From Chloroflexota bacterium (GTDB taxonomy: Bacteria > Chloroflexota > Anaerolineae > UBA4142): a stretch of 40,103 nucleotides of DNA. Numbering within the stretch: position 1 is the stretch's first letter; each line of letters begins with the position of its first letter. The stretch is from contig JAMDCU010000021.1 in assembly GCA_023489485.1 (NCBI GenBank), positions 1-40,103 of the forward strand, given 5' to 3'. The notes below the pieces were generated by a model. The model saw only the letters and a program-made list of their open reading frames with translations. It did not search any database and had not been told where the DNA came from. The position numbers and the translations under genes are program-made. This document shows, piece after piece, positions 639-39,962 of the stretch.

Positions 639-641
639 AAT

Positions 642-5683: not shown

Positions 5684-5700
5684 CACAGAAAGGTGAAAGA

Positions 5701-5892
5701 ATGCAGACACTACTGATTTGGACAGGTGCCCTCATCGGCCCCTTCTACGTCATTCTACTATTGAGCATTCTGGTCGCGCGGCGTGTCTTTCCCGATGCCC
5801 AGACTCTCTATGAAGTGATCGAGCCGATTCTGGTCTTCGTTGCCGGCGCCTGTGCGCTGGCGGTCGCCGGTCTCCTGGCACAAGTGGGGTGA
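5701..5892 (+). CDS. Small two-helix membrane protein
   Basis: Encodes 63 residues with two hydrophobic stretches (about 3-26 and 40-61) separated by a short polar loop (RRVFPDAQTLYEVIEP). The frame is open further upstream to an ATG at 5623 inside the previous gene. The ATG at 5701 is preferred because it follows that gene's stop by 17 nt and has a GAAAGGTGAAAG ribosome-binding region just upstream. No family is recognised. Its position between a replication-relaxation gene and a ParB gene suggests a small membrane accessory of the mobile element. That is inference from context only. Confidence 0.6.
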   Translation: MQTLLIWTGALIGPFYVILLLSILVARRVFPDAQTLYEVIEPILVFVAGACALAVAGLLAQVG

Positions 5893-5954
5893 ATGAGTTG
5901 ATCGCAACTGCCAAGAGCGCTGAAGTGAAATCTATTCCATAACGAGGAGCAACA

Positions 5955-20406: not shown

Positions 20407-20660
20407 CTTTAGCCTCAGCAAAAACGAGTCAGTCATACCGACTTGGATGTGTTCCCACTTTGACTGACGTCGCAGATTTTTCCGTGCAGGGATCTGCCGT
20501 TCAAACATTGTGTCCGGATGTCGGTATCTGTGGCCACCCGATCCAATCTCAGAGGGCCTCGTCTGCACTTGATCCAGAAACCAAAGCGGGTACCCTTGCC
20601 AGCAGTAGGGGGCAGAATCATTGAACATCGCCTAGACTCACACCGTGAGTATCCCTTCTA

Positions 20661-23468: not shown

Positions 23469-23482
23469 GCGGATTGCTCCAA

Positions 23483-24067
23483 TCAAATGAGTCTAAACGT
23501 GCCGGTATTGGTTTCGAGCTGCCACCATTTGAAAAAGCCATACGGAAAGATTGCGGATTCTTCCCGATTCCCGACGACAACCAGCGTCTCCCCTTCTTGG
23601 CGGGCGCGTTCTTCCAAACTCAGCCCGCTGATTACCTGGTCACGAAGGAATCGGACCAACGTCGGAGCCTGATTGGTGCTCGGACGATAGCAGAAAAGAA
23701 CGCGCAGTTGTGTCCGGATACACAAAGTTTTCCAGAGAGCATAGGCAATGAGGTCGTCGTTCTGGCTATTCTCTAACTCCATGACGGCGACAGGAAAACG
23801 CCAGCCTTTCTCAGGCTTTTCAAAAGCAATCACATCGAGAGAAAGGTATTCTTCTCGAGATACTGGGAGCACCTCGAGCGAATGCCCTTTTGCCGAAGCA
23901 TGCCAACCCATGGCGTCGCACGTGGCTGTAACCACAGACGTCAGGGCCTTGGTCCAAGCACCAAGTCTTTCCTGTAATGCCGCTTCTTTCAGCGGCATTG
24001 CATTCTCGCGCTGCTGCAGTACAGTGATGAACTCCTTACGCCACTGATTGACAATGGCACTTGCCAT
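23483..24067 (-). CDS. Unknown protein between methylase and DUF499 genes, nuclease-like pattern
   Basis: Encodes 194 residues from the ATG at 24067. This start is chosen because it overlaps the stop of the methylase gene (TAATG), although the frame continues 15 codons upstream. No domain is recognised with confidence. The segment 'YLSLDVIAFEKPE' followed by 'VAVMELENSQNDD' (about residues 74-105) has the spacing of a PD-(D/E)XK core, with D and E-x-E but no lysine. If this is related, the site is altered. The position, tightly coupled on both sides, marks it as a fixed part of the DUF1156/DUF499 system. DUF3780 proteins occur at this place in related loci, but I cannot confirm that identity from sequence alone. 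Confidence 0.6.
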   Translation of the reverse strand: MASAIVNQWRKEFITVLQQRENAMPLKEAALQERLGAWTKALTSVVTATCDAMGWHASAKGHSLEVLPVSREEYLSLDVIAFEKPEKGWRFPVAVMELENSQNDDLIAYALWKTLCIRTQLRVLFCYRPSTNQAPTLVRFLRDQVISGLSLEERARQEGETLVVVGNREESAIFPYGFFKWWQLETNTGTFRLI

Positions 24068-27000
24068 TAGAACCCTAGCCCTTTCTTTCTCGCCAGCACG
24101 CCATCCACCCACCGCTTCTCATCGCTTGATGATGGATACAGCGCCGAAAGTGCCTGTGCCAAACGCCAAAAGCGGGGATCGGCACCGGCTCCGTTTTCGA
24201 CCAGGAACCGCTTGAGTGCCTCAATTCTTCCGGCCGCAAACAAGATCATGCTTTGGTGGACCCGGTCGAGGGCGGTTTCGCCCGGTCTGGGTGTACTCTT
24301 ATCGCCCCAACCGCCATCCTCTTCTTCGACTTGCCCGACAGTCTCGAACATATCCAGTTGCTTGGCTTGCTTGCGCTTTGCGGCAGGTGCAGGTGACCTG
24401 CCCTCATCTTTGCCAAAAAGATGCCGCGTGCGTTCTGATGCTGGCAGCAGCCGTGCCTTGTCTCCTTGGACTTCGACGAGATTGGTCAATCGCTCCAAAT
24501 GTGCACCCAGCCCTTGAGCGATTTTGCGCGCTGCATCATATTCAAGGAAGTACCCGCTTACCTTCGTCGTCTGTTCACTACCCGCCACGTCATCAGATTC
24601 CCGTTCTTCGTTCTCCTCTCCACCTTGGCGCTTTCTGCCTTCAATCTTTGTAGAGAGCGTCCACAGCCACATTGCTGTTAGCCGGGCATCTTCCTCGAAT
24701 CCTGTTGCATCGGCACCTTCGAAAATCATGTTGAGTGCTTCTTTCGCCACGGCTGCCCAGACGTATTCGAGATACTCTTTCAGTGTGACTTGTTCGCCGC
24801 TTGCTTTCTCTACCCGTGAGTACTGCGAAAAAATCTCCAGCGCGGGGCCGAGGCAGGCGAAGATAGCGTCCGCACCCACAACGCCTTCTTTAGCTAGACG
24901 AGGCATCCAGGTGTGAATGCGCTTCGGCAGTTCTGACAAGACATCGCGCCAATCCCCAATCTCGTTTGTTGACAGTGGTCTACATACAACATGCACAGAC
25001 GATAGCAAGGAGGCATTCTGGTAGGCGTTCATTCTTTCCGGTCTTTCGGTATCGATGGGCCATGAACTCACGATTGTCCATCCAGCAGACACCAATCCAT
25101 TCAGCATCGATTCCCAGCCGCGCGTTGACTTATGCGCGAATACCAAAATCATCAACTGGCTCTTTTCTACGATGCGACGAATCTCAGAAAAAGCTTGGGT
25201 CAGTGCGTGCTCATAAAAATCCGCTCGTTTCTTGCTGGGGCTTCGCGAGTGCGCCCTATCTTCGACAATTTCTGCTGTCTTTTCCGTCAAATCAGATCCG
25301 AACATGGAATCATGTGATGCACGGAGACATGCTCTTAGCCATATGTAGAATACGTCAGACAGATGGGAGTACGGGACTGAATCGTAATAGGGCGGGTCTG
25401 TCACAACAATAGTGGCTCCATCGTCCGGAAGACCAATTTCGGTGGCACTGAAACATTCTGCAGTTCCCGCCTCGAGCTGCAACCGACAAGAACTGGTCAG
25501 TAGCGTGTAAATCTGTTTGAGTGAGAAGTCGAGCCCTCCAACTAACTTCGGCATCGTCGGATTCGCTTCTGCAAAATCCGAGCGCATCGCCAGCGAGGTC
25601 CCTTGGATAAAGGCCGAGACCATTCCATTTGACAGATACGTAGACAGGCTCATGTTGTAATGGATGATGTTCGAAGCAGCGAGCGCGAGCACGTCCAAAA
25701 CGGCTTGCTGAAGCCCCGGATCCTGGGCTGTTTCTCTTAGTTGCTCTCTCGCGCGCCCAAGAGTCAACTCAACTACATCAAGCGCGAGTTTCTGACGCGC
25801 GAGAAACAACTTGTCAAAAGTATCAAGGCCGTATAATGGGACAGAAATGCGGCGAAGCTCTGTTAATGGCACCTTTGTCTTGAGATATTCGGAGAAGAGT
25901 GCCTTGTGCCCGACAATCTTGAGACTGTCCTCGGCCTTCTGTATTGCGGCGAGGTCCTTCTTATTGGGAGCGCGGAAGCGACGCGCCGATTCTCCTGGCA
26001 AAGAAAGCACAACACCCATCAAACGTGTGCCCAGACCCTTCTCGCTTGCTTGCAGACGCACTCTTTCGGCTGGTGTGGTGTATCCACAGCGAGGGCAAGT
26101 GACAGCAGCTTGGCGAGTTGTTCCGGAATTGACAGTTTTAGGAGCGGGATTTTCTACGATTTCGATATCGATTGCTTTTCTAGGCCGTGCGACAAGCCTG
26201 AACGCGTATGTAGGAGAACCCTTCTTTTTGATCCACAACTGATTTATCATGGGGACATCGACTCCACAACCCGGGCCCTCGCATGGAATCGTTCTTGCCC
26301 AGAGGTAGGCTATCGGGGTCGCGCCATCGGGGTCCTTCGGATAGAACTCGGCCAATTCCTTCTCTGCTTGCTCTTTGACCCACTCACCCCACTTGTATAC
26401 TTCGTCCGCAAGTTGCTGACCGTACTTCGGGATGTGCTCTAGGACTACCTTGTTTAGCAGCACTGCAACGGGATTCAGGTCACTCGCAAAGGCATCTGCC
26501 CCAACGCGCAAGGCCTCAAGCGGGATTGCACCACCACCGGCAAACGGATCGACCACGAGTGGATGGGGCAGAGCCGTCATTCGAACTCTCAGGTGCGCGA
26601 TATGCGCATCTATACTGTCTGTGGCGAAATTCAGCCGACAATCAGAAATGTCGAACTCGCTATCGGATAGTGCCGAGTGGGCAATCTGTGTCAACAGGCG
26701 CGCCGTCTCTAGGTATTCCCGGATACCTGAGTTGTCCCAATCGGCGAAATCCGCAATGAAATCGAGCAATGCGTTGCGCAACTCGCCAAGATCATTAGGA
26801 TTGGCCGAATTGAGCCGATTTTCCGCCGTGGCCAATTTAAGCCAGCGCTGAAGTGATTCTCCTGAGCAATGCCCTGATAATGTCTCGCTTTTTCTGGCTT
26901 GGTACGCAAAAGCGTTTATGAGGTCGGCAGCAGCATCGCGGAACGCTTGCGGACAATGCTTGTCGGCGGGGTCAGGCCACAATGCGGCACAGATCACAGC

Positions 27001-27147
27001 ACGGCACGCGGCCAGCGGTCGCCGCGCCCACCAGATGTGCAGCGTGCTGATATGCCCTTGGCGGATATTTTTCTCACGGCGCGCGTGCTCAGAGATACGT
27101 CTGATGGGCAAATCAACTTCGATGAGACGTTTGGGATAGTTGGTCAT
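24067..27147 (-). CDS. DUF1156 adenine-specific DNA methyltransferase
   Basis: A 1026-residue protein of the COG1743/DUF1156 group. The N-terminus 'KRLIEVDLPIRRISEHARRE' with 'HISTLHIWWARRPLAACR' is the DUF1156 signature. The SAM-binding motif is 'VVDPFAGGGAIPLEAL' near 195-210. Zinc-ligand cysteines appear around 292-297 and in TCPRCGY near 350. The catalytic DPPYYDS lies near 582. The order (FxGxG first, DPPY second) and the DPPY itself indicate N6-adenine or N4-cytosine amino methylation; adenine is the family's usual assignment. It would mark host DNA so that the helicase/ATPase part does not attack it. Both ends overlap neighbouring genes (ATGA upstream, TAATG downstream). Confidence 0.88.
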   Translation of the reverse strand: MTNYPKRLIEVDLPIRRISEHARREKNIRQGHISTLHIWWARRPLAACRAVICAALWPDPADKHCPQAFRDAAADLINAFAYQARKSETLSGHCSGESLQRWLKLATAENRLNSANPNDLGELRNALLDFIADFADWDNSGIREYLETARLLTQIAHSALSDSEFDISDCRLNFATDSIDAHIAHLRVRMTALPHPLVVDPFAGGGAIPLEALRVGADAFASDLNPVAVLLNKVVLEHIPKYGQQLADEVYKWGEWVKEQAEKELAEFYPKDPDGATPIAYLWARTIPCEGPGCGVDVPMINQLWIKKKGSPTYAFRLVARPRKAIDIEIVENPAPKTVNSGTTRQAAVTCPRCGYTTPAERVRLQASEKGLGTRLMGVVLSLPGESARRFRAPNKKDLAAIQKAEDSLKIVGHKALFSEYLKTKVPLTELRRISVPLYGLDTFDKLFLARQKLALDVVELTLGRAREQLRETAQDPGLQQAVLDVLALAASNIIHYNMSLSTYLSNGMVSAFIQGTSLAMRSDFAEANPTMPKLVGGLDFSLKQIYTLLTSSCRLQLEAGTAECFSATEIGLPDDGATIVVTDPPYYDSVPYSHLSDVFYIWLRACLRASHDSMFGSDLTEKTAEIVEDRAHSRSPSKKRADFYEHALTQAFSEIRRIVEKSQLMILVFAHKSTRGWESMLNGLVSAGWTIVSSWPIDTERPERMNAYQNASLLSSVHVVCRPLSTNEIGDWRDVLSELPKRIHTWMPRLAKEGVVGADAIFACLGPALEIFSQYSRVEKASGEQVTLKEYLEYVWAAVAKEALNMIFEGADATGFEEDARLTAMWLWTLSTKIEGRKRQGGEENEERESDDVAGSEQTTKVSGYFLEYDAARKIAQGLGAHLERLTNLVEVQGDKARLLPASERTRHLFGKDEGRSPAPAAKRKQAKQLDMFETVGQVEEEDGGWGDKSTPRPGETALDRVHQSMILFAAGRIEALKRFLVENGAGADPRFWRLAQALSALYPSSSDEKRWVDGVLARKKGLGF

Positions 27148-27797
27148 TTTCTGGTATCACACAACACAGAGCCATTTTCGCAGACCCAAAATATTTCTAC
27201 GTTGACATGGGGCCGGATCCACTGAACCTTCTCTAGTAGCTTATGATAGCGCAGAAAATCTGGCATCGCCATGGCCAAGTCCGCATCGAGATTCTCACCC
27301 CTCCATACAAGAATGTCGAAGAACGCGTCTTTGAACCAATGTCCCGCCTGTAGGTTTCGAGGTGTGCTTGTCGTGCCCACAGGGTAGCCTTTGGCGGTCA
27401 CCCAGAGTAACCGCGATCCCTTCTTGGCTTCGATGTCCTTGCCCCGTTCATGTGCGGCAGTATCAGCCGTACGGAGAATTGTGTAGCCACGGTCGCGCAG
27501 GTGTTGCTCGACCCTCGCCTGCACGTTGCCCTCCCAGAACCATGGCTTGTCATCTTCCGAGTGCACTTCTTTAGGTTCGGGTTTCACAAGGGCAGAGGGA
27601 GTTGCACCTTTGGCAAAGTTCCTAATCTTGCCACCTGCGCTTCGACGCTCGATTAGCCCCTCCTGCACCATCTGTCGGCAGTAGTTATTGGCTTCTTGCC
27701 TACGTCTCAACCCAAGGGCAGCAGTGAGTTCATCGTCGTCGGCACCCTCAGGATGGCGCTTCAAATACTCGAGTATTCTATCGCGGATGGTTGGCAC
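27144..27797 (-). CDS. Winged-helix protein with Mrr/PD-(D/E)XK-like domain
   Basis: Encodes 217 residues from the GTG at 27797, preferred because GGAGAGG lies four to five bases upstream. The ATG at 27836 adds 13 residues. Residues ~2-55 form a winged helix ('ILEYLKRHPEGADDDEL', 'NNYCRQMVQEGLIERR'). After a linker comes a nuclease-like fold: 'VEQHLRDRGYTILRTAD', 'HERGKDIEAKK', 'LLWVTAKGYP' near 130-175. In Mrr-like nucleases the last block reads E-x-K; here it is T-A-K, so the catalytic acid seems to be lost or shifted. It may act as a DNA-binding regulator or sensor for the methylase it is coupled to (4-nt overlap). Confidence 0.65.
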   Translation of the reverse strand: MPTIRDRILEYLKRHPEGADDDELTAALGLRRRQEANNYCRQMVQEGLIERRSAGGKIRNFAKGATPSALVKPEPKEVHSEDDKPWFWEGNVQARVEQHLRDRGYTILRTADTAAHERGKDIEAKKGSRLLWVTAKGYPVGTTSTPRNLQAGHWFKDAFFDILVWRGENLDADLAMAMPDFLRYHKLLEKVQWIRPHVNVEIFWVCENGSVLCDTRK

Positions 27798-28470
27798 GTT
27801 CCCTCTCCTGGGGGCTCTTTGCCTCTCTGGCGGCATCGTATTCCTCGTGCAGTTTCGAGATGGATGGGATCGCTTTTCTGGCGACCTGAATAAAGGCGTT
27901 GTCGGTCAGCAGCTCATAGGTGATGCCCTTGAACACCAGCTTGACCTCAATCTTTTTCAGATTCTCTTCAGCGGAACCGAACGCGTCGTTCAACTCGCTT
28001 TCGAGCATGCTATGAATCTCGTCCTCCTTGGGCGACGCCCCCATGAACTTGCGCCAGCGGGCCGGCGGACTCTTGACCACGGTTGGCAGAAGGGCTTCCG
28101 CCAGAGCATTCCGGTTCGCGTCAATTTCTTTCTGTAGCTGAGTGGCGACTTTTCTTTGGTAGCGCAGAATGTACTTGCGCAACGTTTTTACCGCCAACTC
28201 AAGATCTGCCTTGTTACTCCGCAGGGCCACAGATCCATAGTTCTTGAGCGTGATGAGGTATTTCCTTGCGATGAAATCCTTGAGCTTGAAAACCGGATTA
28301 CCTGAAAGGGAGCTTTTCTCGTCTACCAACTGAAAAGTGCTCTTGAGCAGTCGCTGCACCCTCTCCTCTTTTGCCAACCCCATCAGATCGCTCGGAATTG
28401 GGACCTTCTTCCGGGAAATGAGTCCACCCGTCAATTCAAACTCCACGAATTCAAAATGAGCATTGAACAC
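27778..28470 (-). pseudogene. 3' part of frameshifted PLD-like defence gene
   Basis: The open frame encodes 230 residues from an internal ATG, but the frame is readable further upstream to about 28590. It reads '...AKELQETDADLKSNPPVAF' and 'DVARKVRVFNAHFEF', which continues the upstream piece in a different frame. The C-terminal region is helical and charged (KTLRKYILRYQRKVATQLQK) and has no recognised domain. With the 5' piece it would make a protein of about 414 residues. If the shift is real the gene is disabled; if it is an assembly error the gene is intact. The ATG at 28470 has no obvious ribosome-binding site, which argues against it being an independent gene. Confidence 0.6.
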
Positions 28471-28496
28471 GCGGACCTTACGGGCGACATCGAACG

Positions 28497-29021
28497 CTAC
28501 TGGCGGGTTAGACTTGAGATCAGCGTCCGTCTCCTGTAGTTCCTTCGCTTGACGGCGTCCATCCCTATCTGCCGGTCGCGAGTGCCATTTTCACCCTGGC
28601 CGAGATCCCGATTGACTGCTGGTGGGACCGAGTTCAGCAGGATCGCGCTGGGCCGAGATTGTTCCCTGGGTGTCGACTCGATGAGGAAGGGCGTGGGGGA
28701 GAATATGAGAATGCGCTCGTCCGCAACCACAAGGCCGATACGGATACCCACTTGGCGATTGATATTTGCCCCGAGCTCGCCGGCGACAGTCTGTAGCCTC
28801 TGTATCGCTTCAAACTCGCCGTATCCGAGGCGTACTACCTCAGGGTCGACATCGAGGATAACATCAACGCGCTCTGGGCCCAGAGATTTCCAACGTTCAA
28901 CGAGAGCGTCGGCCACCTTGTGACGCAAGCCGGGACCGGCGAACACCAAACGAGTTTTCGCGGACTGGATAAAGTTGATGAGGTCTGCATCATCTACACA
29001 GCGAATCGTTTGCTCAGACAT
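28497..29021 (-). pseudogene. 5' part of frameshifted PLD-like defence gene (DrmC-like?)
   Basis: Encodes 174 residues; the true homologous part ends near 28550. It starts 15 nt after the helicase stop. 'SAKTRLVFAGPGLRHKVADA' and 'VGIRIGLVVADERILIFSPT' look like one half of a phospholipase-D fold, where active enzymes have HxKxxxxD and a following GS/TxN. Here the H and K are replaced, so this half is degenerate. PLD-like proteins accompany helicases and methylases in DISARM-type systems (DrmC), which makes this a plausible relative. After 'DRQIGMDAVK' the frame turns basic (RRNYRRRTLISSL) and stops, while a neighbouring frame continues the protein. This points to loss of one base near 28548. 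Confidence 0.6.
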
Positions 29022-29036
29022 TACAGCGCCATCCCC

Positions 29037-32000
29037 TTAGGCTTTTTGACTTAGTATTTCCTCTGCTTTCACCTGGTAATGCTCAACCGTTACAATCGGC
29101 TTCCATCCAAGCCGCACAGGGTCTTGAATCAAGCGGATCTCTGGGGTGCCAGAACAATTGAATACCACGTACAGCCAATAATCCTGCTTTAGTCGCTCCG
29201 CGGTCTTGTATTCGTTGGCGCTCAGCGCAATGTCGCCCACTCCTGCACGCCCCTTGACCTCAACAAAGCGAACGCCAATCGCGGTCTGCGGGTCTTCGGG
29301 ATGGGGCCGACGTGAGATGAGATCGAAACCGCGATTCTCTTTTTCTACACTCTCGGCGTGCCACCCGCGCGCCTCTTCGTACGCCTTGACCGCCGCGACG
29401 GCAATCCGTTCAATCTCCTCATCACGCACCATTGGCGCAATGCTCGGGGCCGTCCGCTCTGGATGCGGCAATACCCAAGCGCGCCCATGCTGGCGAATGT
29501 CGCTGACGAGGCAGTTGCGCTCTTGTTGCAGTTCTTCGCGGCGACGCTCTAGGCGTCCATTCAGTTCGTCGAGACGGTCCTCGACTGTCTTGATGTTTGC
29601 TGCCAAGAGCGGGCTCGGATCGCCCGACTGCTGGTCCTCTAGCAGTTCCGCCATCCGCAGATTCTGCCGGTGAATTAATTGGTTCAGGCTGATCTCCATG
29701 TGGTCGGAGATAACCTCGATTTCCTTCTCGCGCTGTAGACGGATCTCCTCCAGGAAGGGACCCAATGCTCGCTCGACGAGGACTTGCTCGACGTGCTCAC
29801 GCTGTGGCAGTGCACTGCCCTCCGGTACGGCTGTTCCACTGGGTGCTAGCGCCAGATCAAGAAAGAGTGTGGGTTGGCGCACCGCCATCAGTCCTTCGAC
29901 GTCCGTCTCGACGACGAATAGCCGCCGGTGCAGGATATTGCCACGCCCATCCCGAATCGCGGCCGAGAAAACGTCCAGACGTGCCGGCTGGTCTCGGTGG
30001 ATATCGTAGAACACAGCACCACGCTGGAGGTCCTTTTGCACGCGTTCCGCTACATCTTCACGAACCGATTCAAACAGCGGATGGCCTGGCGTGACCCATT
30101 CGAGCGTCGGATCATCGGTCAACAGCTTTTTGTCGAAGACGATCTGCTTGTACTCGCGCCCTAACTTGCCGAACCGCGGTTCGATCCGCTCACCAATCGG
30201 CCAGAGCGTTCGGGGAATCTTGCCAATGCGGTAGACATGCTCCCCACGCTTGGTCTCCTTGGGGCTGACCCCGGCGAGAGGTGCCGCTTCCGTAAAGAAC
30301 CCTTCAATTACCTCGGGCACAAGCCGTCGCTCTTTTGCCTCGGCGGACTTGCCGACGATGGCGGAGAGATTCAACTCGCGCTTGGCAAGACCTTCCAAGG
30401 TCGAAAACGTGATCTTGCGGAAGCGTTCCGTATCCACCTGCTCGATGATACGACTAGTAATGACGTCGACGCTCAGGTTGTGGGCATACATGTCTCGTAG
30501 CATCCGCTCAATGGTGTTGGCGGGGAATACTTCGCCCAGGACATTGAACACCTTGCCGGTCCGTTTGGGGTCGAGGTCTTCTTCTATCTTCTGGATGCGC
30601 TCGAACAGCTTTTGAAATACGCGCCCTTCTCGGGTGTTCGTCGTCACAAAGTTGAAAATGAGGCAGTCCTTCTCCTGTCCATAGCGGTGGATACGCCCCA
30701 TCCGTTGTTCGAGCCGGACCGGGTTCCAGGGAATGTCATAGTTGATCATGAACCAGCAGAACTGGAGGTTGATACCTTCGCCGGCGGCTTCGGTCGCCAC
30801 TAGCACCTGACACTCGTCGCGGAATTCGCGCTCGGCATAGATGCGAGAGCCGGGGGTATCTCGGTCGCCGATCTTCATTCCACCGTGAATCTGAGTGACC
30901 GACAGGTTCCAGGCGCGCAGCTTGTCGATAAGGTAATCGAGCGTATCTTTGTGCTCGGTGAAGATGAGAACCTTCATCTTCGGATCGGCAAAGACACCCT
31001 GCGCCGTGATCATTTCTTTCAACTTCGTCAGCTTCGTCTCGACCTCGCGCTCTTCCAAGGCACAGGCCAGATCGATGAGACGGTTCAACTGGAGGATTTC
31101 CTCGCGCAAGGCTGTGGGATCGACTGAGGCAACGACGCCTTCCAGCTCATCCAAGATTTCCTGCTGTTCTTCCTCTTCCAGTTCGTCGAAATCCTCCGGC
31201 ACGCGTTTCGCGATTTGCTCTTGCCGGTAGCCGGCCGGATCGTCGAGAATCTTTTGGCGTTTGTCGCGCATCCGCTCCAAGCTGCGCCGGACGGCGTAGA
31301 TACTCGAGGCGAAACGGCGTTGGAGCATCGCCATCGTAAAACCTAGAGCACGCCCACGGGCGGAATCATCCGCCGCCGCCTTGATCGATTGGTTCTCAAC
31401 AAAGCGGGTCAGAGCATCGTAGAAATCCCACTCGTCGTCGCTGATCTGGAACTCAGTGGTCTGGACGTTTCGTTTGGTGAAGATGGCTTTGATCTGCCCG
31501 GTATCCGGATCGGGAAATGTGACCAACGCCTCTTTTACCCGACGCAAGTAGAAGGGCGCGGAGTTGCGCCGCATCGCCTCTTCCAAACTCTTGACGTCCC
31601 CGTAGACGTCCCGGTCGAGCAGTTCGAGGAAGAGACAAAAGTTCTTGGGGTCGCCTTTGTGTGGGGTTGCGGTCATCAGCAAATAGTGGTCAGTCATCTC
31701 AGAGAGTTGCTCGCCGAGTTGATACGCCAGCGTCTTTTTCTCCGAACTGTAAGCGCTCATCTTGTGCGCTTCGTCGACAATGATGAGGTCCCAATGACTG
31801 CGGAGGAGGCTTTCGCGTGCGTCTTCGATGATAGACACCCAAGAGACGGACGTAATCACTTGGTTCTTGTCTTGCCAGGGATTGGAACCATAGTTGGCAC
31901 GGAGCACATCCCCGCGAATAATCTCAAAATGCTCGCGGAACTTGTCTTTCATTTCACGCTGCCATTGGAAAGACAGATTGGCCGGCGTGACTATGAGCGT

Positions 32001-32459
32001 ACGCTGGATCAACCCCCGGATCTTGAGTTCCTTGATAAGCAATCCCGCCATGATCGTCTTGCCGGCACCGGGATCGTCCGCGAGCAGAAAGCGGATGCGG
32101 GGCAGCTTGAGAAAATAGTCGTAGACAGCCTCAAGCTGGTGGGGTAAGGGATCAACACGCGCGATGGAGAGGGTGAAGTAGGGGTCATATTCGTAGGCGA
32201 GTTGGAGACGCATAGCCTCAACCCCGAGGCGAAAGCGGCCGGCATCGCCATCAAACGGTTCCTTCTGAGGTGTTGCTTCCAGTGAGGCGATTTGCTCGCG
32301 TGAGAGGACGAGCTCGTGCACCTGACCGGTATTGAGCCCTTTGCCGATGAGCTTGATGGAATCGCCCATCTGTATGGTCACGATCACCTGGACTGGCTCG
32401 GGGAAAAGTGATCCCCGCAATACTGTGTTCGGTTTCAGCGCTGGAAAGCTGCTATCCAA
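29037..32459 (-). CDS. SNF2/HepA-type helicase with C-terminal DUF3883 domain
   Basis: A 1140-residue protein with a TTG start preceded by AAAGGA. Superfamily-2 motifs are visible in order: DDPGAGKTIM (I) near 131, IIVDEAHKM (II) near 224-232, 'LLMTATPHKGD' (III), 'VLIFTEHKDTLDYLID' (IV), 'VATEAAGEGINLQFC' (V) and 'QRMGRIHRYGQ' (VI) near 584. A charged coiled-coil region follows, and then a DUF3883 domain at about 1000-1110. That domain carries 'ENRGFDLISRR' and 'VRFVEVKGRA', a D...E-x-K pattern of nuclease-like folds. It is related to the SNF2 helicases of DISARM class 1 (DrmD) and of DUF1156/DUF499 loci. It would translocate on invading DNA and supply the motor of the restriction complex. 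Confidence 0.88.
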   Translation of the reverse strand: MDSSFPALKPNTVLRGSLFPEPVQVIVTIQMGDSIKLIGKGLNTGQVHELVLSREQIASLEATPQKEPFDGDAGRFRLGVEAMRLQLAYEYDPYFTLSIARVDPLPHQLEAVYDYFLKLPRIRFLLADDPGAGKTIMAGLLIKELKIRGLIQRTLIVTPANLSFQWQREMKDKFREHFEIIRGDVLRANYGSNPWQDKNQVITSVSWVSIIEDARESLLRSHWDLIIVDEAHKMSAYSSEKKTLAYQLGEQLSEMTDHYLLMTATPHKGDPKNFCLFLELLDRDVYGDVKSLEEAMRRNSAPFYLRRVKEALVTFPDPDTGQIKAIFTKRNVQTTEFQISDDEWDFYDALTRFVENQSIKAAADDSARGRALGFTMAMLQRRFASSIYAVRRSLERMRDKRQKILDDPAGYRQEQIAKRVPEDFDELEEEEQQEILDELEGVVASVDPTALREEILQLNRLIDLACALEEREVETKLTKLKEMITAQGVFADPKMKVLIFTEHKDTLDYLIDKLRAWNLSVTQIHGGMKIGDRDTPGSRIYAEREFRDECQVLVATEAAGEGINLQFCWFMINYDIPWNPVRLEQRMGRIHRYGQEKDCLIFNFVTTNTREGRVFQKLFERIQKIEEDLDPKRTGKVFNVLGEVFPANTIERMLRDMYAHNLSVDVITSRIIEQVDTERFRKITFSTLEGLAKRELNLSAIVGKSAEAKERRLVPEVIEGFFTEAAPLAGVSPKETKRGEHVYRIGKIPRTLWPIGERIEPRFGKLGREYKQIVFDKKLLTDDPTLEWVTPGHPLFESVREDVAERVQKDLQRGAVFYDIHRDQPARLDVFSAAIRDGRGNILHRRLFVVETDVEGLMAVRQPTLFLDLALAPSGTAVPEGSALPQREHVEQVLVERALGPFLEEIRLQREKEIEVISDHMEISLNQLIHRQNLRMAELLEDQQSGDPSPLLAANIKTVEDRLDELNGRLERRREELQQERNCLVSDIRQHGRAWVLPHPERTAPSIAPMVRDEEIERIAVAAVKAYEEARGWHAESVEKENRGFDLISRRPHPEDPQTAIGVRFVEVKGRAGVGDIALSANEYKTAERLKQDYWLYVVFNCSGTPEIRLIQDPVRLGWKPIVTVEHYQVKAEEILSQKA

Positions 32460-32501: not shown

Positions 32502-33239
32502 TCAGCAACAGGGCTCACTAGGCTTGCTTGGAGATTTCGTTTTGCTCATTTCCTTCAATATCTTTACGACTTTGAATTTGGTACCATCATCGATACGTTT
32601 CAAAACTGCCTGGACCTGTTGATGCTCCAAGCGGACTGGCCTCTTGCCTTTGATGCCCCGCACAAGTAATGTCCTTACTGGTCGAGGCGGCTTCCCCACG
32701 GGAATCTCTGCGCGCTCGCCCGCAACATTCAGTGGCAGAAAAGAAAAATCGCTCGCTCCTCTCTGCCATGCGCGTGAGAGATATGTGTATTGTCCTTCGT
32801 GCTGCTTATCTTTTCCGATTCCGAATCGCAGGTGATGCAGCCAGAGCTTGGAAGATTTGTTCCTCCGATATTTCTCCAACTCCGCCGGAAGATCCGGTCT
32901 TTTGCCCCGCCGCCACTCCGCAACGGTGCCGACTACAAAAACGGTATCAACGCGGAGGATACCGTCCTCCGCTGCGTCTCCACTGCAGAAGATGAGATAT
33001 GAACCCGGTTGGATATATGATGGGTGTCGCTTCCGACGTCGGAGTTGGGTGGCATGGCAATACGTAAATGCCCAAGGGTAGGCAAGAACGAATGGGTCTT
33101 CATTGCCATTGGGTTTGTCTACCCAGACGCGGCCATGCCAGCGCCTTGTTGCTCCTTTAGGCGTAAGAGCGACCGCCTTAACATGGACCGCAGCTCTTTT
33201 CTTTTCCGGATGGAAGATTATGTAGTGAGCCAGTGCCAT
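32502..33239 (-). CDS. Unknown protein leading the defence operon, possible DNA-modification reader
   Basis: Encodes 245 residues from the ATG at 33239, which has GGGGA about seven bases upstream. An upstream GTG at 33272 is possible. The central part, 'YPWAFTYCHATQLRRRKRHP' then 'YIQPGSYLIFCSG' and 'VDTVFVVGTVAEW', is a beta-rich block. It loosely recalls PUA/EVE-like and Nmad-type domains that recognise modified bases. This is a pattern impression, not a match. The C-terminus is lysine-rich. It is 42 nt upstream of the helicase gene on the same strand and so probably belongs to the same system. A terminator lies about 90 nt ahead of its start. Confidence 0.55.
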   Translation of the reverse strand: MALAHYIIFHPEKKRAAVHVKAVALTPKGATRRWHGRVWVDKPNGNEDPFVLAYPWAFTYCHATQLRRRKRHPSYIQPGSYLIFCSGDAAEDGILRVDTVFVVGTVAEWRRGKRPDLPAELEKYRRNKSSKLWLHHLRFGIGKDKQHEGQYTYLSRAWQRGASDFSFLPLNVAGERAEIPVGKPPRPVRTLLVRGIKGKRPVRLEHQQVQAVLKRIDDGTKFKVVKILKEMSKTKSPSKPSEPCC

Positions 33240-33328: not shown

Positions 33329-33375
33329 AAAAAAAGGCACCTGCCCAAGCGCAGACGCGCTTAAAGACAAGTGCC
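33329..33375 (-). terminator. Rho-independent terminator, leftward
   Basis: On the minus strand GGCACTTGTC and AAGCGC pair across a GTCT loop with GCGCTT and GCAGGTGCC. The stem is followed at once by seven T residues (33329-33335). It is a strong stem with a few internal mismatches. It lies between the promoter at 33523 and the first defence gene. Confidence 0.75.
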
Positions 33376-33516
33376 GAGGATCGCCGTCGATCAACCCGCT
33401 CGCGCGACCTTCGTCACCCGGGGCGACAGGCAATCACACCAAGAATCAGATTGAGAGTGCCGTAGTCCAAGCTAGAAGTCTAGTCCGTAGCCACGGGGCA
33501 AAGAGATCAAGCGATC
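33329..33516 (-). ncRNA. Candidate small RNA or attenuated leader ahead of the defence operon
   Basis: A transcript from the promoter at 33523-33552 would run about 187 nt and end at the terminator at 33329-33375. The body (33376-33516) can close on itself: GATCGC near the 5' end can pair with GCGATC near 33380, with further GATC/GATC and CCCG/CGGG pairings inside, plus a local CAATC...GATTG hairpin. No start codon with a ribosome-binding site is evident. Size and rod-like pairing recall 6S-type RNAs, but I see no decisive consensus. It could also be a leader that controls readthrough into the defence genes starting at 33239. Confidence 0.4.
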
Positions 33517-33522
33517 TACGAC

Positions 33523-33552
33523 AGTATACCACAAGATTATGGAAATCAACAA
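33523..33552 (-). promoter_or_regulatory. Sigma70-like promoter, leftward
   Basis: On the minus strand TTGTTG (33547-33552) is followed after 18 bases by TATACT (33523-33528). A TG one base before the -10 makes it an extended -10 element. Expected transcription start is near 33516. It lies just after the stop of the AddA-like gene and reads toward the defence array. Confidence 0.6.
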
Positions 33553-33585: not shown

Positions 33586-36558
33586 CTACCCTGCGCATAC
33601 CATCGTGCGTGCCGCGCACCATTCGCAGAAATCGGACTTCACCTGCGGAAAGGCGGCGTCTGGTCGAGAGAGGTTAGCCGTGAAAGTTGCCAGTTCATTC
33701 TTTAGACGCGTTTCATCTGCCGAAGTACAAGAGACAGAAAGCATTGCTGCAGTCGGAGCATGGTAGATCCAGAGCGTTGCTTCAGGTTTGAGCAGGCCAT
33801 CTTGCCTCGCACCAAGCGCGTAGAGACGCAGTTGATCGCCGCAGCGGTCCACCAGCCCTTCGGCGGCGGCATCTGTCTTGAAATCGATCAGCCGGTCGGG
33901 CTCGAACCGGTCAGCCACTCCAAAGACCCCGAGGATTCCATCGTCAAATTCCATGAATAGCGACACCCGGACTTCGACGGCGGCTGGCTCGAGAGGTACG
34001 CGGCCAATTTCACTCGCCAGATACAACTCCAACCATGTCTTCACAGTGTTCGCCTGACTGGCACTCAAACGCGCGGACAACTCGCTTTTGGCCATTCCTA
34101 ACAACTCATCTGCGGTTGCCTGATGGCATCGCGCATGCGCTGCGACCGCGCGATGGAAAACGGAGCCGAGCAGTCGGCCCGTGCCATGACCCTCTACCCG
34201 CTCTTCCTCTCGCTCAATATCCTCTTTCAACCACCCATAGCGAGTGAGGTAGTAATAGCGATAGGCAGCAGGACACTGTTGGTACCACCGGAACGCCGTG
34301 GGCGAAACACGGAACTGGGGTTTGGCTAGAACAAAGGCGGGTGCCATCGGCCTCGGTGTTTGCTCAGGCCCAGTGGTAGCAGGAGATGGGAGAGAACTCT
34401 TCGCCTCTGGTGAGCGGTCGAGGGCCACGCCGGGCAGTGGGCTATCCGCCTGTCGGTTCCACAGTTCCTCGAAAAAGGTCTCGACTTTTCCGTACCGGTC
34501 GTCCTCGCGTTCCTTCTTGTTCGTCGCGGTAATAATCAGTCGCTTCTTGGCACGCGTGCAGGTCACGTACCACAGGCAGCGAGCTTCGTTCTGAGAGCGA
34601 CGCTTGCGCTCCACAAACGCGGGATGGTCTACCTCTTCTTTCGGGATCACCAAACCTGAGGTCGGCTCGTGGAACGGCGACTGGCTCTGATTCGGGCGGA
34701 CCTTTTGGCGCGAATCCGCCGCGATGACCACGGGGAATTCAAGCCCCTTGCTCGCATGCGCAGTGAGGACGCGCACGGCATCTTTTGCCGTATTCAGTTC
34801 GGGTGCCTTGGCGCGCGGGTTACCCTCGAGCGTCAACCGTAAGTAGGTGACGAGATCGCGCAAGTATTCGGTGGGATGATCAGACTCGTACACCTGGACA
34901 ATTGCTTGCAACTTCGTCAAGGCGCGCAGTGCCATCGGGTCAGCCACACTTCCCAAGCCGCTCTGCTGCAGCGCCCAGTCGACAAAAGAGGCCATCGAGA
35001 CCACCCACTGCTCTCTCTGCGCCTCTTGCCAGAAAGCCATGAACTGGCCGACACGCGCGCGAACGACAGTGTCCTGAGTTGCTGCTTCTACTCGGCGGAC
35101 CACACCCCACAGTCGCTCGCCTTTTTCCTGCGCACGTGCCAAGGCCGCGACCTGGTCTTGGCTGAGGCCGACCGCTGGGCTGAGGAGCACGCGCACGAGC
35201 GACAGGTCATCGGCTGGGTTGAGACAGACGTTCAGGAGGTGAATGGCATCCAAGACTTCCGGGCGTGTGAAGAAGGCATCCTGCGCCGAGACCTCATATG
35301 GAATTCCAGCCCTACGCAGGGCGGCCGCATAGGCGTCCAGGTACGTTCTCGCCCGGATGAGAATCGCAATCTCGCCAAACTTGAAATCCTCCGCTGTGAC
35401 CGCTTGCGCGATCCAACCGGCAACGGCTTCTGCTTCCTCTTCCCGCGTCGGACAGGCTTGAAGATCGACGATCACTCCGTCAAACTGCTCGTTCTTTGAA
35501 TACGGCTTCAGCTGATCGTGTGCGTCAAATTCTGGCGCCACGGCAAAAGCATAACCCGCGATCGCTCGGTTCGCGACGTCAAGGATTGGCTTGAGCGACC
35601 GGCGGTTTTCGATAAGCGGCCGGTCGTTACGCTTTCCGCCGCGCATCGGGAAATCGGCGATGTTGTCGACGCGTGCTTCGCGCCAGACGTAAATCGCCTG
35701 TCGGGGGTCACCCACCACCGTGATATTTGCCATGCCTTCGGCCGCGAGGGCTCGCAACAGCCGGTCTTGGACGAAATTGGTGTCCTGGTATTCGTCGACG
35801 AGGATAACCTTGAATTGCGTCCGCAGCTCGTCGCGGAGCGCCTTGTCGTTTTCCAGGAGTGCGACCGTGCCGACGATGAGCCGGTCGAAATCAAGCTGGC
35901 CCCGATCCTTCAATTCTTGAAGATAGGCGGCATAAAGCCAGTGCACGAGGGGTGTGAGCGCGCGATGCGCCTCCGATTCCGTTTCTTTATCGACAACCTC
36001 ACGCTTGAAATCCTCTAGCGCCACGCCCTGATTCAGCAGCTGATCCATGATATCTTGCGCCGTATCGAACGGTCCGCCATCTTCCCAGGTGTAGGCGCCG
36101 AGCTCCAGCGGATTCAATGTGCCGTACGCTTCGCGATAGCCTTGTTCCAGAAAGCGTTCCTGCGCCTCCTCCATGAATTCTTGGACATCAACTGGGGTGA
36201 GAACCGGCAGGTTCGGGTCGACTCGTGCCGCGAGGCTGTGCTCGCGGAGCAAGCGAGCGCCGAAGGAGTGAAAAGTGCTAATGGAGGCGGCACTGAGATC
36301 CAGGCGGTCGAATCCCAGGTCGGCTTGCGTGACGGCGCGGAAAATCCGGGCCCGCATTTCGGCCGCCGCCTTTTCGCTAAAGGTCAAAACGAGAATGTTC
36401 TCCGGCTTGAGCGAACGGTCCTTTTCGAGAAGATGGACAAAGCGACGCGAAATGACCTCCGTCTTGCCGGTCCCAGCTCCTGCGACGACCCGTGTCGGCG
36501 TGCCGAGAGGAGAATGAATCGCTTTATCTTGTCCGGGGTTGGGGAGAAAGCTGCTCAT
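33586..36558 (-). CDS. AddA/UvrD-like helicase with RecB-type nuclease domain
   Basis: Encodes 990 residues. The ATG at 36558 is preferred because AGGAGGAG lies four bases upstream and it overlaps the previous stop (ATGA). Superfamily-1 motifs: 'VVAGAGTGKTEVISRRFV' near 22-40, 'LVLTFSEKAAAEMRAR', 'VILVDEYQDTNFVQDRLLRA', 'VVGDPRQAIYVWR', and 'VRVLTAHASKGLEFPVVI' (motif V). The C-terminal nuclease has 'GVFGVADRFEPDRLIDFKTD' and 'QLRLYALG'. Four cysteines (QQCPAAY, and CEWC...C in the last 20 residues) fit a 4Fe-4S nuclease as in AddB/AdnAB. Length is somewhat below AddA (about 1200). It should process double-strand ends together with the adjoining AddB-like subunit. Confidence 0.85.
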   Translation of the reverse strand: MSSFLPNPGQDKAIHSPLGTPTRVVAGAGTGKTEVISRRFVHLLEKDRSLKPENILVLTFSEKAAAEMRARIFRAVTQADLGFDRLDLSAASISTFHSFGARLLREHSLAARVDPNLPVLTPVDVQEFMEEAQERFLEQGYREAYGTLNPLELGAYTWEDGGPFDTAQDIMDQLLNQGVALEDFKREVVDKETESEAHRALTPLVHWLYAAYLQELKDRGQLDFDRLIVGTVALLENDKALRDELRTQFKVILVDEYQDTNFVQDRLLRALAAEGMANITVVGDPRQAIYVWREARVDNIADFPMRGGKRNDRPLIENRRSLKPILDVANRAIAGYAFAVAPEFDAHDQLKPYSKNEQFDGVIVDLQACPTREEEAEAVAGWIAQAVTAEDFKFGEIAILIRARTYLDAYAAALRRAGIPYEVSAQDAFFTRPEVLDAIHLLNVCLNPADDLSLVRVLLSPAVGLSQDQVAALARAQEKGERLWGVVRRVEAATQDTVVRARVGQFMAFWQEAQREQWVVSMASFVDWALQQSGLGSVADPMALRALTKLQAIVQVYESDHPTEYLRDLVTYLRLTLEGNPRAKAPELNTAKDAVRVLTAHASKGLEFPVVIAADSRQKVRPNQSQSPFHEPTSGLVIPKEEVDHPAFVERKRRSQNEARCLWYVTCTRAKKRLIITATNKKEREDDRYGKVETFFEELWNRQADSPLPGVALDRSPEAKSSLPSPATTGPEQTPRPMAPAFVLAKPQFRVSPTAFRWYQQCPAAYRYYYLTRYGWLKEDIEREEERVEGHGTGRLLGSVFHRAVAAHARCHQATADELLGMAKSELSARLSASQANTVKTWLELYLASEIGRVPLEPAAVEVRVSLFMEFDDGILGVFGVADRFEPDRLIDFKTDAAAEGLVDRCGDQLRLYALGARQDGLLKPEATLWIYHAPTAAMLSVSCTSADETRLKNELATFTANLSRPDAAFPQVKSDFCEWCAARTMVCAG

Positions 36559-39500
36559 GTTTCTCCTCCTGTGGCCTTGCCTTGGTCGCAGACGGAGGCG
36601 AACGCACAATAGTTGCAGGCGCCGTAGGTGGGAGTCGCCTCGTACGGGGTGAAAGACATGCTATTCAATGTGCTGGCAACTGCCTGAGGGATTTGCTTTT
36701 CGAGTGTGGAGACGGGTAGCTCGCCGCGTCGGTAATCGAGTTTACCCTTCGTGATCTGAATGGTCCGGCAAGATTCGGCGGTGTAACTGCCATTGTCTTT
36801 CTGAGCTATCGAGCCAATGTTCATATAGTGGAGGGCGCGGGGCGCACCTTGGACGCGTCGGATGCCAGCCATGAGCGCCAGCGCGTACAGCGGCAGCTGA
36901 TAATCGCTCGGCCGCTTATCCCCTTCGGGCAGGAATTTCTGCATCTGGGCATTGAGCGCATACTTGCCGGACGAGCCGGTCTTGTAGTCGATCACATCGT
37001 AGAAAGTGCCCGCCGCGGTCTTAATCTGATCGATGCGATCAATTCGACCGGCAATCGGTATCCCCTCAATCTCGATTCGGAAGGGGACTTCCAAGAGGAT
37101 GGGGCGGCGGACCTCGGCATCGGGTAGACCGTCGCTCTCAAATTCGGCCCACGCCGCGAGCGCGTCTTGTGCCCAGAGGCGCACGGCTTGGCGCTGGAGA
37201 TCCGGCCCGAACGCGACACTCCATTCGGCGCTCGGCGTGTAGCGGCCTCCCCCGGGCAGATCAGTCGGTTGACCGGTCCACCCCGCCTCGAGCGCCTTGT
37301 GTGTGCGCTCCTTCAGTCTCGCGGCGTCCCCGATCCAAGGCGCTGGCTTGCCATGCGAGAGATCCACTTCTCGGCAAGTGCCGTCTCCCAAGGCGGCGCA
37401 CAAGACCTCGTGAATTAGCGAGCCGCGTCGCGGCGTATCCTCTTCCTCGGTTTCGATGTTCAAAACATGCGCCAGAAAGAATTGCAGGGGACAGGTCAAG
37501 TACATCCGGAGTTGCGTGGCGGAGAAGGTGTGGCGGTTCAGGACCTTTGTGGGTCCAGGCGTAGGCGCGAGCAAGCGACGAAGTCCGCCTGTCGATAGCG
37601 GCGGAAGCTCTGGCGCTTTGCTCCACAAGACCGGATGGGTAAGCTGAATTTGCCCATCTTTGTCGATCTCGCCCTCGTCGGCGAGCATTCGTTCGAAAAA
37701 GGGCGAAGGAAGTTGGGCCTCTCCCCCCGCAGTGTACTGGCTCACCGACACCTGCAGATGTTCGGTGCCACGGCTGAGCAGCAGGGCGAGCTTGCGCGCC
37801 TCCCGTTCGATCCACGCGGCATGATCCCGGAGAGCGGGCAGAACGACACGTCGCCCGTCCGTGAATAATGCCGGCAGTTCTTCCTCCGAGATGAGTTGGA
37901 ACGGCGCGCTGGGGATAGGGCAAGCGTTTTCGGAGAGCCCCACAACAAAGGCGCTAGGGGCGTGGCTTCCGTTCGCGTGCAGGCTATCGAGGAATTGGAT
38001 CTCCTCGGGCCGCGTTTCGGTCTGGGTAAGCTCATCCGCTAAACCGTCGAGGAGGTCGATCCACTCCTCAAACGGCGTATTGACAGAGCGTGCGGTCCCT
38101 TCCAGATCCGAGATCGCGACAAGCCAGTTGGAAAACGTGCGCGCCCATTCGTCGCGCTGAGCGCGTCCGAAAGCGGAATTGTCCCATGCCCACGCGATGC
38201 CGCCGAGATCGCGTACCAACTGGAAAAGCTGCGGTCTCAGAGGTGATTCCTGATTCAACTTACTGAGTGCCTCGCGCACGTGTCCCAGGCAGGCTATGGT
38301 CGCTTCCGGCACTACGAGAGATGGCAGTTCCGTGCCCTCGAGCTCGAGAATGCTCTTTTCGTGATCCTTCGCGGCGCGCTCCAAAGCCGCGCGGTCGATC
38401 GGATCGATACCCACGTATGGCAGGGCCAATAACTCGGAGTCGATTTCAGCGTCTGCGCCTTGTGAGAGCCATTGGAGGGCAAGGATGCCTGCATAAATGA
38501 GCGGGTTATGGCGAGCGGGAGGTGGCTGCGGCGAGACCAGTCCATAGCGCGCTAACACGCGTCGTGCAAAGGGGAGCAATCCAGCATCTGCAGCAACGAT
38601 GGCAATCTCGCTCGGTTTCAGGGCGCGGTCCCGAGCCAGTTGATTGGCAACTGCCCGCGCCACTAGCTCCATTTCATCTTCTACGGCAGAGGCGCCGGCT
38701 ACCAGCATAATGGGGGAAGATATCGGCTGCCTCGCGCCCGGCATCTTTATCACGCGACCGATGAGGGACGTGATGGCGGGATTCATGTCGGGTGCTGGTC
38801 GGTCGAGTGTTTCCACCTGCTCACAACTCCGCAAGAACTCCTGAACATGTCTCAATTCCGGTGAAGCTGGGTTTGCCTGGAGCCAGGCGGTACATGTGAA
38901 GCGAGTATCGGGACCGCACAACCGCTCGATCAAGGCCAATTGGTCGGGGCGGGCTTGATGCAGGTCGTCCACCATGAGAACAGGGAAGCGGTTATGTACG
39001 CCTCGTGCGATGCCCTCTTCCGCGAGGAGATCCAGGCAGCGCAAGCTCGATTCCTGAAACGTGAGCACCCGATTCCGGTTGCACAGTTCGATGTAGCGGA
39101 CGTAGACGCGCGCGAGTTCGTGCTCGCCCGCCTCGTTCGGAGCTAGCGTGAATCCGCGTCTGTTTTGAGAGATCCAGTCCACCACTCGGGCCAGTTCGCT
39201 GATAGCTCCAGGCGCCTCGTGGAACTCCTGCCACAAAGCCCCTCCGATATCCGACCACGCCCGGGCAATGATGAGAGCCCGCGCCGCAGGGCTGATTTCC
39301 TCAAGTGGCGTATCCAGCCCTACCGCGTCCGCGTATTCGGTGAGCAGGGTGAGCTGAAAATGCTGTATCGTTGTGACGTAGGGGAGGAAATTCCCTACGT
39401 CCCGGAGCTTGTCGCGCAGGGAGCGCGCATTGGCCGAAAAGAAGGAAAGAAGGAGAATTCGCTGCGGAGCAAGGTGCTCATCTCGAACGCAGTGAATATA

Positions 39501-39584
39501 GTCCCTAACCAGGCGTGAGGACTTGCCCGTCAGGAGAGTACCGGCAAGAACACGACGAAAGGCAGGAGAAGAAGGAGTCGACAT
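36555..39584 (-). CDS. AddB-like helicase-fold/Fe-S nuclease subunit
   Basis: A 1009-residue protein opening with a Walker A-like 'AGTLLTGKSSRLV' (about 14-26) and then a UvrD-like fold lacking a clear DExx/QxxR set, as in AddB. 'PVLMVDDLHQARPDQLALIE' is the nearest motif-II equivalent. The C-terminal nuclease carries 'CPLQFFLAHVLNIETEEE', 'GRIDRIDQI', 'YDVIDYKTG' and 'YQLPLYALAL', and closes with 'ACNYCAFASVC'. The four cysteines are spaced for an Fe-S cluster that staples the nuclease domain. It is the first gene of a two-gene unit, coupled by ATGA to the AddA-like subunit. Such complexes resect DNA breaks and degrade foreign linear DNA. AdnA/AdnB-type is an alternative name. Confidence 0.82.
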   Translation of the reverse strand: MSTPSSPAFRRVLAGTLLTGKSSRLVRDYIHCVRDEHLAPQRILLLSFFSANARSLRDKLRDVGNFLPYVTTIQHFQLTLLTEYADAVGLDTPLEEISPAARALIIARAWSDIGGALWQEFHEAPGAISELARVVDWISQNRRGFTLAPNEAGEHELARVYVRYIELCNRNRVLTFQESSLRCLDLLAEEGIARGVHNRFPVLMVDDLHQARPDQLALIERLCGPDTRFTCTAWLQANPASPELRHVQEFLRSCEQVETLDRPAPDMNPAITSLIGRVIKMPGARQPISSPIMLVAGASAVEDEMELVARAVANQLARDRALKPSEIAIVAADAGLLPFARRVLARYGLVSPQPPPARHNPLIYAGILALQWLSQGADAEIDSELLALPYVGIDPIDRAALERAAKDHEKSILELEGTELPSLVVPEATIACLGHVREALSKLNQESPLRPQLFQLVRDLGGIAWAWDNSAFGRAQRDEWARTFSNWLVAISDLEGTARSVNTPFEEWIDLLDGLADELTQTETRPEEIQFLDSLHANGSHAPSAFVVGLSENACPIPSAPFQLISEEELPALFTDGRRVVLPALRDHAAWIEREARKLALLLSRGTEHLQVSVSQYTAGGEAQLPSPFFERMLADEGEIDKDGQIQLTHPVLWSKAPELPPLSTGGLRRLLAPTPGPTKVLNRHTFSATQLRMYLTCPLQFFLAHVLNIETEEEDTPRRGSLIHEVLCAALGDGTCREVDLSHGKPAPWIGDAARLKERTHKALEAGWTGQPTDLPGGGRYTPSAEWSVAFGPDLQRQAVRLWAQDALAAWAEFESDGLPDAEVRRPILLEVPFRIEIEGIPIAGRIDRIDQIKTAAGTFYDVIDYKTGSSGKYALNAQMQKFLPEGDKRPSDYQLPLYALALMAGIRRVQGAPRALHYMNIGSIAQKDNGSYTAESCRTIQITKGKLDYRRGELPVSTLEKQIPQAVASTLNSMSFTPYEATPTYGACNYCAFASVCDQGKATGGET

Positions 39585-39659: not shown

Positions 39660-39705
39660 AAAAAACACCCCTGCCGGATGGCGTCTGCATCCGACAGCAG
39701 GTGTT
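39660..39705 (-). terminator. Rho-independent terminator, leftward
   Basis: On the minus strand the arm at 39688-39705 (AACACCTGC, then CGGATG after a three-base bulge) pairs with 39664-39680 (CATCCG then GCAG...GTGTT) around a seven-base loop. Six T residues follow (39660-39665). It ends transcripts coming from the promoter at 39934-39962, about 75 nt before the AddB-like start. Confidence 0.75.
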
Positions 39706-39819
39706 GGTCACTCTTCGCAGCAATTGTTCAGATGAGCTTCGTCACAGGCTGAATCGTCCCGCATCATGTCTCAGGGTCCGACCCGCAAGAGATGTGTACA
39801 AGTTTGGTGCGCTGGACCA

Positions 39820-39918
39820 TCAGGGAGAGCGAGGGCATGTCGGTGCCGATAACAGGAAGAATGCATGCCCAATGACAAAGCCGATCAGAGAAAGCAGAAG
39901 ATCACGTTCCTTCCACAT
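39820..39918 (-). CDS. Possible 32-residue hydrophobic peptide in the leader
   Basis: ATG at 39918, about nine bases after the predicted transcription start, so it would be nearly leaderless. The peptide has a single hydrophobic stretch (LLLSLIGFVIGHAFFLL) after a charged MWKERD start, like a small membrane peptide. No Shine-Dalgarno sequence and no known family; it may be chance. Confidence 0.2.
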   Translation of the reverse strand: MWKERDLLLSLIGFVIGHAFFLLSAPTCPRSP

Positions 39919-39933
39919 CTAGATACAATGCAC

Positions 39934-39962
39934 AGTATAGCGCGAGATGGAGCGCGCGTCAA
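39934..39962 (-). promoter_or_regulatory. Sigma70 promoter, leftward
   Basis: On the minus strand TTGACG (39957-39962), 17 bases, TATACT (39934-39939). Both boxes are one base from consensus and the spacer is ideal. Expected start of transcription is near 39927. It reads toward the leader, the terminator and the AddB-like gene. Confidence 0.75.

Follow-up and report, generated by a model that had tools for sequence, protein, structure and literature searches.

A conserved structured RNA, probably a transcription attenuator, ahead of a Hma/pAgo defence operon in a Chloroflexota bacterium

RESULTS

A promoter, a structured RNA and a terminator precede the defence genes

Based on sequence comparison and folding, we propose that a short element ahead of a block of defence genes is the 5' leader of that operon and probably acts in cis as a transcription attenuator. 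The window, by which we mean the whole stretch of 40,103 nucleotides analysed, carries on its minus strand, at 33329-33552, an extended -10 promoter, a structured RNA of ~190 nt and a strong T7 terminator, so arranged that promoter, leader and intrinsic terminator stand ahead of a co-directed gene. The first-pass annotation had described these parts, and sequence, conservation and folding bear it out; the ~190-nt RNA holds no credible open frame. Our best reading places the element in a new family of attenuators. Its subclass, here called subclass A, would rely on RNA alone, and the loci known to date lie mainly ahead of defence operons. The features are as follows.

33523..33552, minus: predicted promoter, with a weak -35 (TTGTTG at 33552-33547 or TTGATT at 33549-33544) and the extended -10 TG-G-TATACT
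33336..33518, minus: leader RNA, 5' end predicted 5-7 nt past the -10, drawn from conservation, folding and the covariance models R1 and R2
33329..33375, minus: intrinsic terminator, hairpin 33375-33336 and T7 at 33335-33329, drawn from sequence, consensus scan and folding
32502..33239, minus: first gene downstream of the leader, encoding about 245 aa, without a Pfam, PADLOC or NCBIfam match
16790..32459, minus: remainder of the downstream gene block, with HmaA (29037-32459), HmaB (24067-27147), HmaC (20661-23486), pAgo (18085-20628), an Argonaute-associated nuclease (16790-18097) and small genes in between
33586..39584, minus: upstream AddAB-like pair, UvrD/PDDEXK (33586-36609) and AddB-like (36555-39584), which travels with the leader

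Judging by its co-direction, the block at 16790..32459 would form a single operon. The -10 hexamer TATACT (33528-33523, minus) lies 57 nt downstream of the stop of the UvrD/PDDEXK gene, and the spacer is 18 nt for TTGTTG and 15 nt for TTGATT, the -35 being weak either way. A simple consensus scan of the minus strand recovered the terminator and missed the promoter because of this poor -35. The promoter call rests on conservation: its 39 bases are invariant (0 differences) across the three copies that this genome contains, and TGTGATATACTT recurs in two distant copies. The window RNA folds at -83.4 kcal/mol (z = -3.25), and none of 200 dinucleotide shuffles reached so low an energy; two distant homologues gave z = -2.54 (L005) and a non-significant -0.96 (L004). 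The first-pass annotation had also pointed to 6S and other known families for comparison. No Rfam family matches within the window, and searches of the element at E<=10, as well as a permissive Rfam search of 11 homologue-bearing loci, returned chance-level matches to it only. The element found no blastn match among phages and plasmids, and its conserved-core patterns are absent from the viral contigs searched.

Near-identical copies head different defence operons

Two further copies, 95-96% identical and each with the same helicase gene upstream, lie in the window's own genome, a 3.12-Mb assembly that is 70.7% complete. In the first (contig C57) the stretch homologous to the window is 6.6 kb long: it begins at 39963, takes in the AddAB-like pair and breaks off at the terminator, at 33333. 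Behind it follow BrxE, BrxA and BrxC, recognised by profile matches, and between the last two an ORF of fitting size that we take to be BrxB. The ORFs behind the second copy (C133) have sizes equal to those behind the first (BREX, brxE-A-B-C); this contig ends at its edge there and possibly derives from a co-binned strain. Behind the window copy stand the ~245-aa protein, the Hma genes, pAgo and the associated nuclease. Within one genome the AddAB-like pair and leader thus stand before BREX at two loci and before Hma/pAgo at a third; these three copies are not independent of each other. A comparison of window and C57 shows 1 changed base among 138 in the RNA body, and 136 changes over 1465 positions of the flanking helicase coding sequence, with 76 of 488 third codon positions affected; set against the latter, the conservation of the body (Fisher 4e-8) points to strong constraint on the element, beyond chance.

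Among the 14 genomes of the family, a DNA search found the RNA in three, the own genome included. Subclass A comprises the three own-genome copies and diverged copies in two related genomes (G008 and G012), which retain motifs of the body. The covariance model R1, built on these five sequences, scores them at 150-203 bits; at E<=1e-5 it found matches in 3 of 396 class genomes and 1 of 400 phylum genomes, all within the own family. Downstream lie Hma/pAgo (one locus), BREX (two) and a type I restriction subunit (one, in G008), and at the G012 locus two proteins have no Pfam, PADLOC or NCBIfam match. Recognised defence genes therefore stand behind four of the five loci, that is, two of the three independent ones. 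Conservation upstream of related operons, which the first-pass annotation had suggested looking for, is thereby found. Its proposal that the RNA supplies Argonaute guides finds no support, since copies before BREX and before a type I restriction gene mean that the RNA does not track Argonaute. From leader to first gene the distance is 60-90 nt in the window and 112 nt at G008:C116.

Three proposed overlapping pairings in the leader

The RNA contains segments for a 5' helix (P1), a candidate antiterminator and the terminator. An RNAalifold consensus built on the initial five sequences was dropped, as the three near-identical copies dominated it, and hand-named helices were used instead.

33490..33503, minus: P1 5' strand, CUUUGCCCCGUGGC
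33409..33427, minus: P1 3' strand, GUCGC..GACGAAG
33404..33418, minus: candidate antiterminator 5' strand, GGUGACGAAGGUCGC, overlapping the P1 3' strand
33371..33384, minus: candidate antiterminator 3' strand, GCGAUCCUCGGCAC, including the terminator's first bases

In P1 the 5' segment CUUUGUCCCGCGGG pairs with a segment roughly 70-110 nt downstream. Taken jointly, P1 and the terminator have 85.5% of cells paired, as against 43-52% after sliding. In a shuffle test covering 38 leaders, the P1 duplex reached p<=0.05 in 12. The input was 46 leaders, with 15 of 59 matches left aside; 8 of the 46 lacked the 5' motif, and several matches were anchored on incorrect 5' sites. The helix is weak or absent in many members of the wider family described below. 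It is strongest in the closer ones: none of 200 shuffles did as well in G012:C92, G010:C200, G008:C15 and G008:C116. P1 can therefore be taken as secure just for these closer members.

In subclass A the segment GGUGACGAAGRUCGC is complementary to GCGAUCMUCGGCAC, which extends over the terminator's opening bases. This candidate antiterminator is the top partner of the terminator 5' arm in all five members, where it ranks 14, 17, 16, 26 and 1 of 200 against shuffles. Its pairs hardly vary, so that covariation cannot test it. In prefix folds the antiterminator was best in one of the five (L005, before the terminator is complete) and the other four folded without it. At -20.6 to -25.0 kcal/mol the terminator hairpin is the stronger of the two helices, the range for the antiterminator being -14.9 to -18.9 kcal/mol. 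The overlaps suggest that P1, antiterminator and terminator are mutually exclusive helices and likely constitute the switch in subclass A.

A wider family with leader peptides

Weaker R1 matches led to diverged leaders of the same layout: a sigma70-type promoter, CUUUGUCCCGCGGGNUGCGGA near the 5' end, a terminator and a co-directed gene. A second covariance model, R2, which includes P1, found matches at E<=0.01 in 17 of the 20 genomes of the order, many of them terminator-driven. It reached 15 of 298 class genomes, every one in the own order, and 3 of 400 genomes of the phylum sample, namely the own genome and two from another family (f62); one of these two matches (L163) has the 5' motif, a start with a Shine-Dalgarno (SD) site and a terminator. 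From 91 R2 matches, 11 were removed after inspection (terminator-only or antisense) and 20 lay outside the set; the remaining 60 and the second leader of the window make up 61 leaders. The next gene is co-directed in 55 of them, opposed in 3 and lacking in 3, and for one of the opposed cases (G011:C240) there is, in addition, a co-directed TIR gene that runs off the contig. Upstream genes are co-directed in 40, opposed in 15 and lacking in 6. In several leaders 13-33 nt separate the terminator from a start codon with an SD site, which in the tightest cases leaves no room for a separate promoter.

A genome-wide pattern gave 12 stretches, of which six lie in Chloroflexota MAGs and six in unrelated taxa (Arthrobacter twice, Kordia, Lacunisphaera, a Clostridiales MAG and a Desulfobacterales MAG); the latter six were taken as chance, the fitting named records being Chloroflexota MAGs. 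A mismatch pattern over 20 genomes was discarded, swamped by chance matches. In this lineage the terminator sequence type of the leaders also occurs as plain or bidirectional terminators at G010:C77 (L123), G012:C117 (L119) and G000:C118 (L114).

An SD-led start lies within 90 nt before the terminator in 45 of the 56 leaders outside subclass A, compared with 19.2 in shuffles (sd 3.3, maximum 25), mostly 40-60 nt before the hairpin. Of these 45 ORFs, 35 reach or pass the terminator, against 9 and 27 in the other two frames, and several of the peptides terminate in APVV. Such an SD-led short ORF reaching the terminator is present in the wider family and absent in subclass A: enumeration of all possible starts gave no SD-led frame in any of the five window-type leaders. 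The peptide-type leaders share no common antiterminator that we could find. The window itself contains what is likely a second member of the wider family, of the peptide type.

39660..39962, minus: putative second leader, R2 match at E 0.0047, preceding the AddAB-like pair

Its predicted promoter is TTGACG-17-TATACT (39962-39934, minus), and a terminator is present. Its P1, CUUUGUCAUUGGGC/GCCUGUGACGAAG, was equalled by 12 of 200 shuffles, and the possible peptide MMRDDSACDEAHLNNCCEE (39767-39708, minus) has a weak SD.

Genes behind the leaders

Proteins for Pfam and PADLOC were picked, not drawn at random, and within this choice the defence-type genes behind leaders include TIR (L025, L151), SIR2 (L157), pAgo (L153), FRG-HepT (L156), a restriction subunit, BrxE and, as a later gene of L031, TIR-CHAT. 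Repeat proteins (WD40, RCC1, Kelch), tyrosine recombinases and proteins of the SPFH/Band 7 type follow other leaders. The wider family therefore extends beyond a defence regulon proper, its members standing before both accessory and conflict genes. The leader before pAgo (L153, G005:C31) is of the peptide type and stands directly before the gene, which shares 68% DNA identity over 1373 bases with the window pAgo. At 8 of 20 loci tested, in eight genomes, PhnE (NCBIfam) lies upstream of the leader (L024, L025, L030, L031, L134, L139, L148, L150). Behind these eight leaders are WD40 in two, TIR in one, a protein without assigned identity with TIR-CHAT further on in one, an SPFH protein assigned by Pfam in one and, judged by eye, membrane proteins resembling it in three. 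The differing genes behind the PhnE-leader and AddAB-leader units suggest that genes are exchanged behind a retained leader.

DISCUSSION

How might the leader control the genes behind it? In the model that we infer for transcription, read-through, switch and trigger, RNA polymerase would start at the extended -10 promoter, make the ~190-nt leader and then either stop at the T7 terminator or read into the operon. In subclass A the choice would probably be set by the three exclusive pairings. In the OFF state P1 (CUUUG..GUGGC with GUCGC..CGAAG) would sequester the GUGACGAAG segment, leaving the terminator free to form. Were P1 prevented or delayed, GGUGACGAAGRUCGC could pair with GCGAUCMUCGGCAC and capture the 5' arm of the terminator, and transcription would continue (ON); in the window, GGUGACGAAG is the proposed antiterminator partner of GCGAUCCUCGGCAC. 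Candidates for the controller of P1 are a protein, a metabolite, the ribosome or the state of the polymerase.

The first-pass annotation had offered a stand-alone small RNA beside an attenuator, and the homologues directly before co-directed genes favour its attenuator option. A trans-acting small RNA between two operons, the downstream one having its own promoter, would account for the element's own promoter, strong terminator and stable fold, and the spacing to the first gene leaves room for another promoter in the window and at G008:C116. Given that homologues are almost always directly before a co-directed gene, several within 13-33 nt, we hold this to be unlikely; the RNA is probably neither a free small RNA nor a guide source. 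It is less likely still that the GUG of GUGACGAAG, 40-42 nt before the terminator, is the degenerate start of a peptide-type attenuator. Its position agrees with the starts of the wider family, but an SD is found in none of the five members and the frames diverge in length (VTKVARAG*, VTKIA*, VTKVALAIHTILRSSALVV*).

Two further readings fit poorly. An unregulated, constitutive terminator shielding the AddAB-like pair on its upstream side, with an RNA that has no function, would be in keeping with the three plain or bidirectional terminators of the same type; the element's own promoter, however, sits after the AddAB-like genes, the body is conserved along with the terminator, and distant copies keep its motifs, which makes this very improbable. 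GACGAAG, which fits the Ro motif, occurs in all five subclass A members and recalls a bacterial Y RNA (Ro-binding RNA). That identity is scarcely credible: no TROVE/Ro gene was found in the own genome (0 matches in the 70.7% complete assembly), the motif is lost in the wider family (GACAAAG, GGCGAAG), and the element has no Rfam match. An attenuator acting in cis remains our preferred explanation.

In their working the leaders resemble known attenuators. Riboswitch-type attenuators are leaders with exclusive antiterminator and terminator helices, like those proposed here; the present leader differs in having no Rfam counterpart. The pil1 leader of Streptococcus gallolyticus is a leader-peptide attenuator in which transcription is switched on when translation proceeds into the terminator (PMC3894217). 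It shares with our element a promoter, a leader and a premature stem-loop terminator before an operon, and with the wider family a peptide that may end in or past the terminator, the ribosome blocking the hairpin. The window subclass differs in lacking an SD-led peptide, its proposed switch being RNA pairing. In E. coli, according to a study of transcription-translation coupling, translation stops intrinsic terminator hairpins from forming (PMC5021804). The same logic may apply to the peptide-type relatives; as described there it is a general principle, not a leader family, and the peptide-less subclass falls outside it. Structured RNAs of Chloroflexota include the Chloroflexi-1 RNA (PMC2864571) and the DUF3800-IX RNA (Rfam), and the leader matches neither. 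Titles and opening lines of abstracts in the literature searched contain no description of such a leader before BREX or Hma, and by these searches and Rfam the family is undescribed.

What would such a family mean for defence? How costly defence operons are silenced and switched on is largely an open question in the field. If the attenuator reading is true, unrelated systems (BREX, Hma/pAgo, type I restriction) would be under common control at the RNA level, and the leader would offer a sequence handle for finding conflict genes behind the same leader type. We speculate, with considerable doubt, that a Chloroflexota lineage keeps promoter-leader-terminator units as 'attenuated sockets', one leader type holding down exchanged genes behind it (Hma/pAgo, BREX, restriction, TIR, SIR2 and some surface genes). 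The peptide-less subclass might then serve as an RNA sensor of disturbed transcription or translation, as in phage takeover, and release several defence operons at the same time.

Two neighbourhoods contain further features. At L012 a DUF3800-IX RNA (1774-1847, plus) is found near a leader. A nearby ORF there is preceded by a further promoter, which shares the leader's 5' motif but shows no visible terminator. On the plus strand of the window, 120-8008 encodes a Peptidase M23, a type IV coupling-type ATPase, a replication-relaxation protein, ParB and a DnaB-like ATPase, which suggests a mobile or conjugative element adjoining the defence block.
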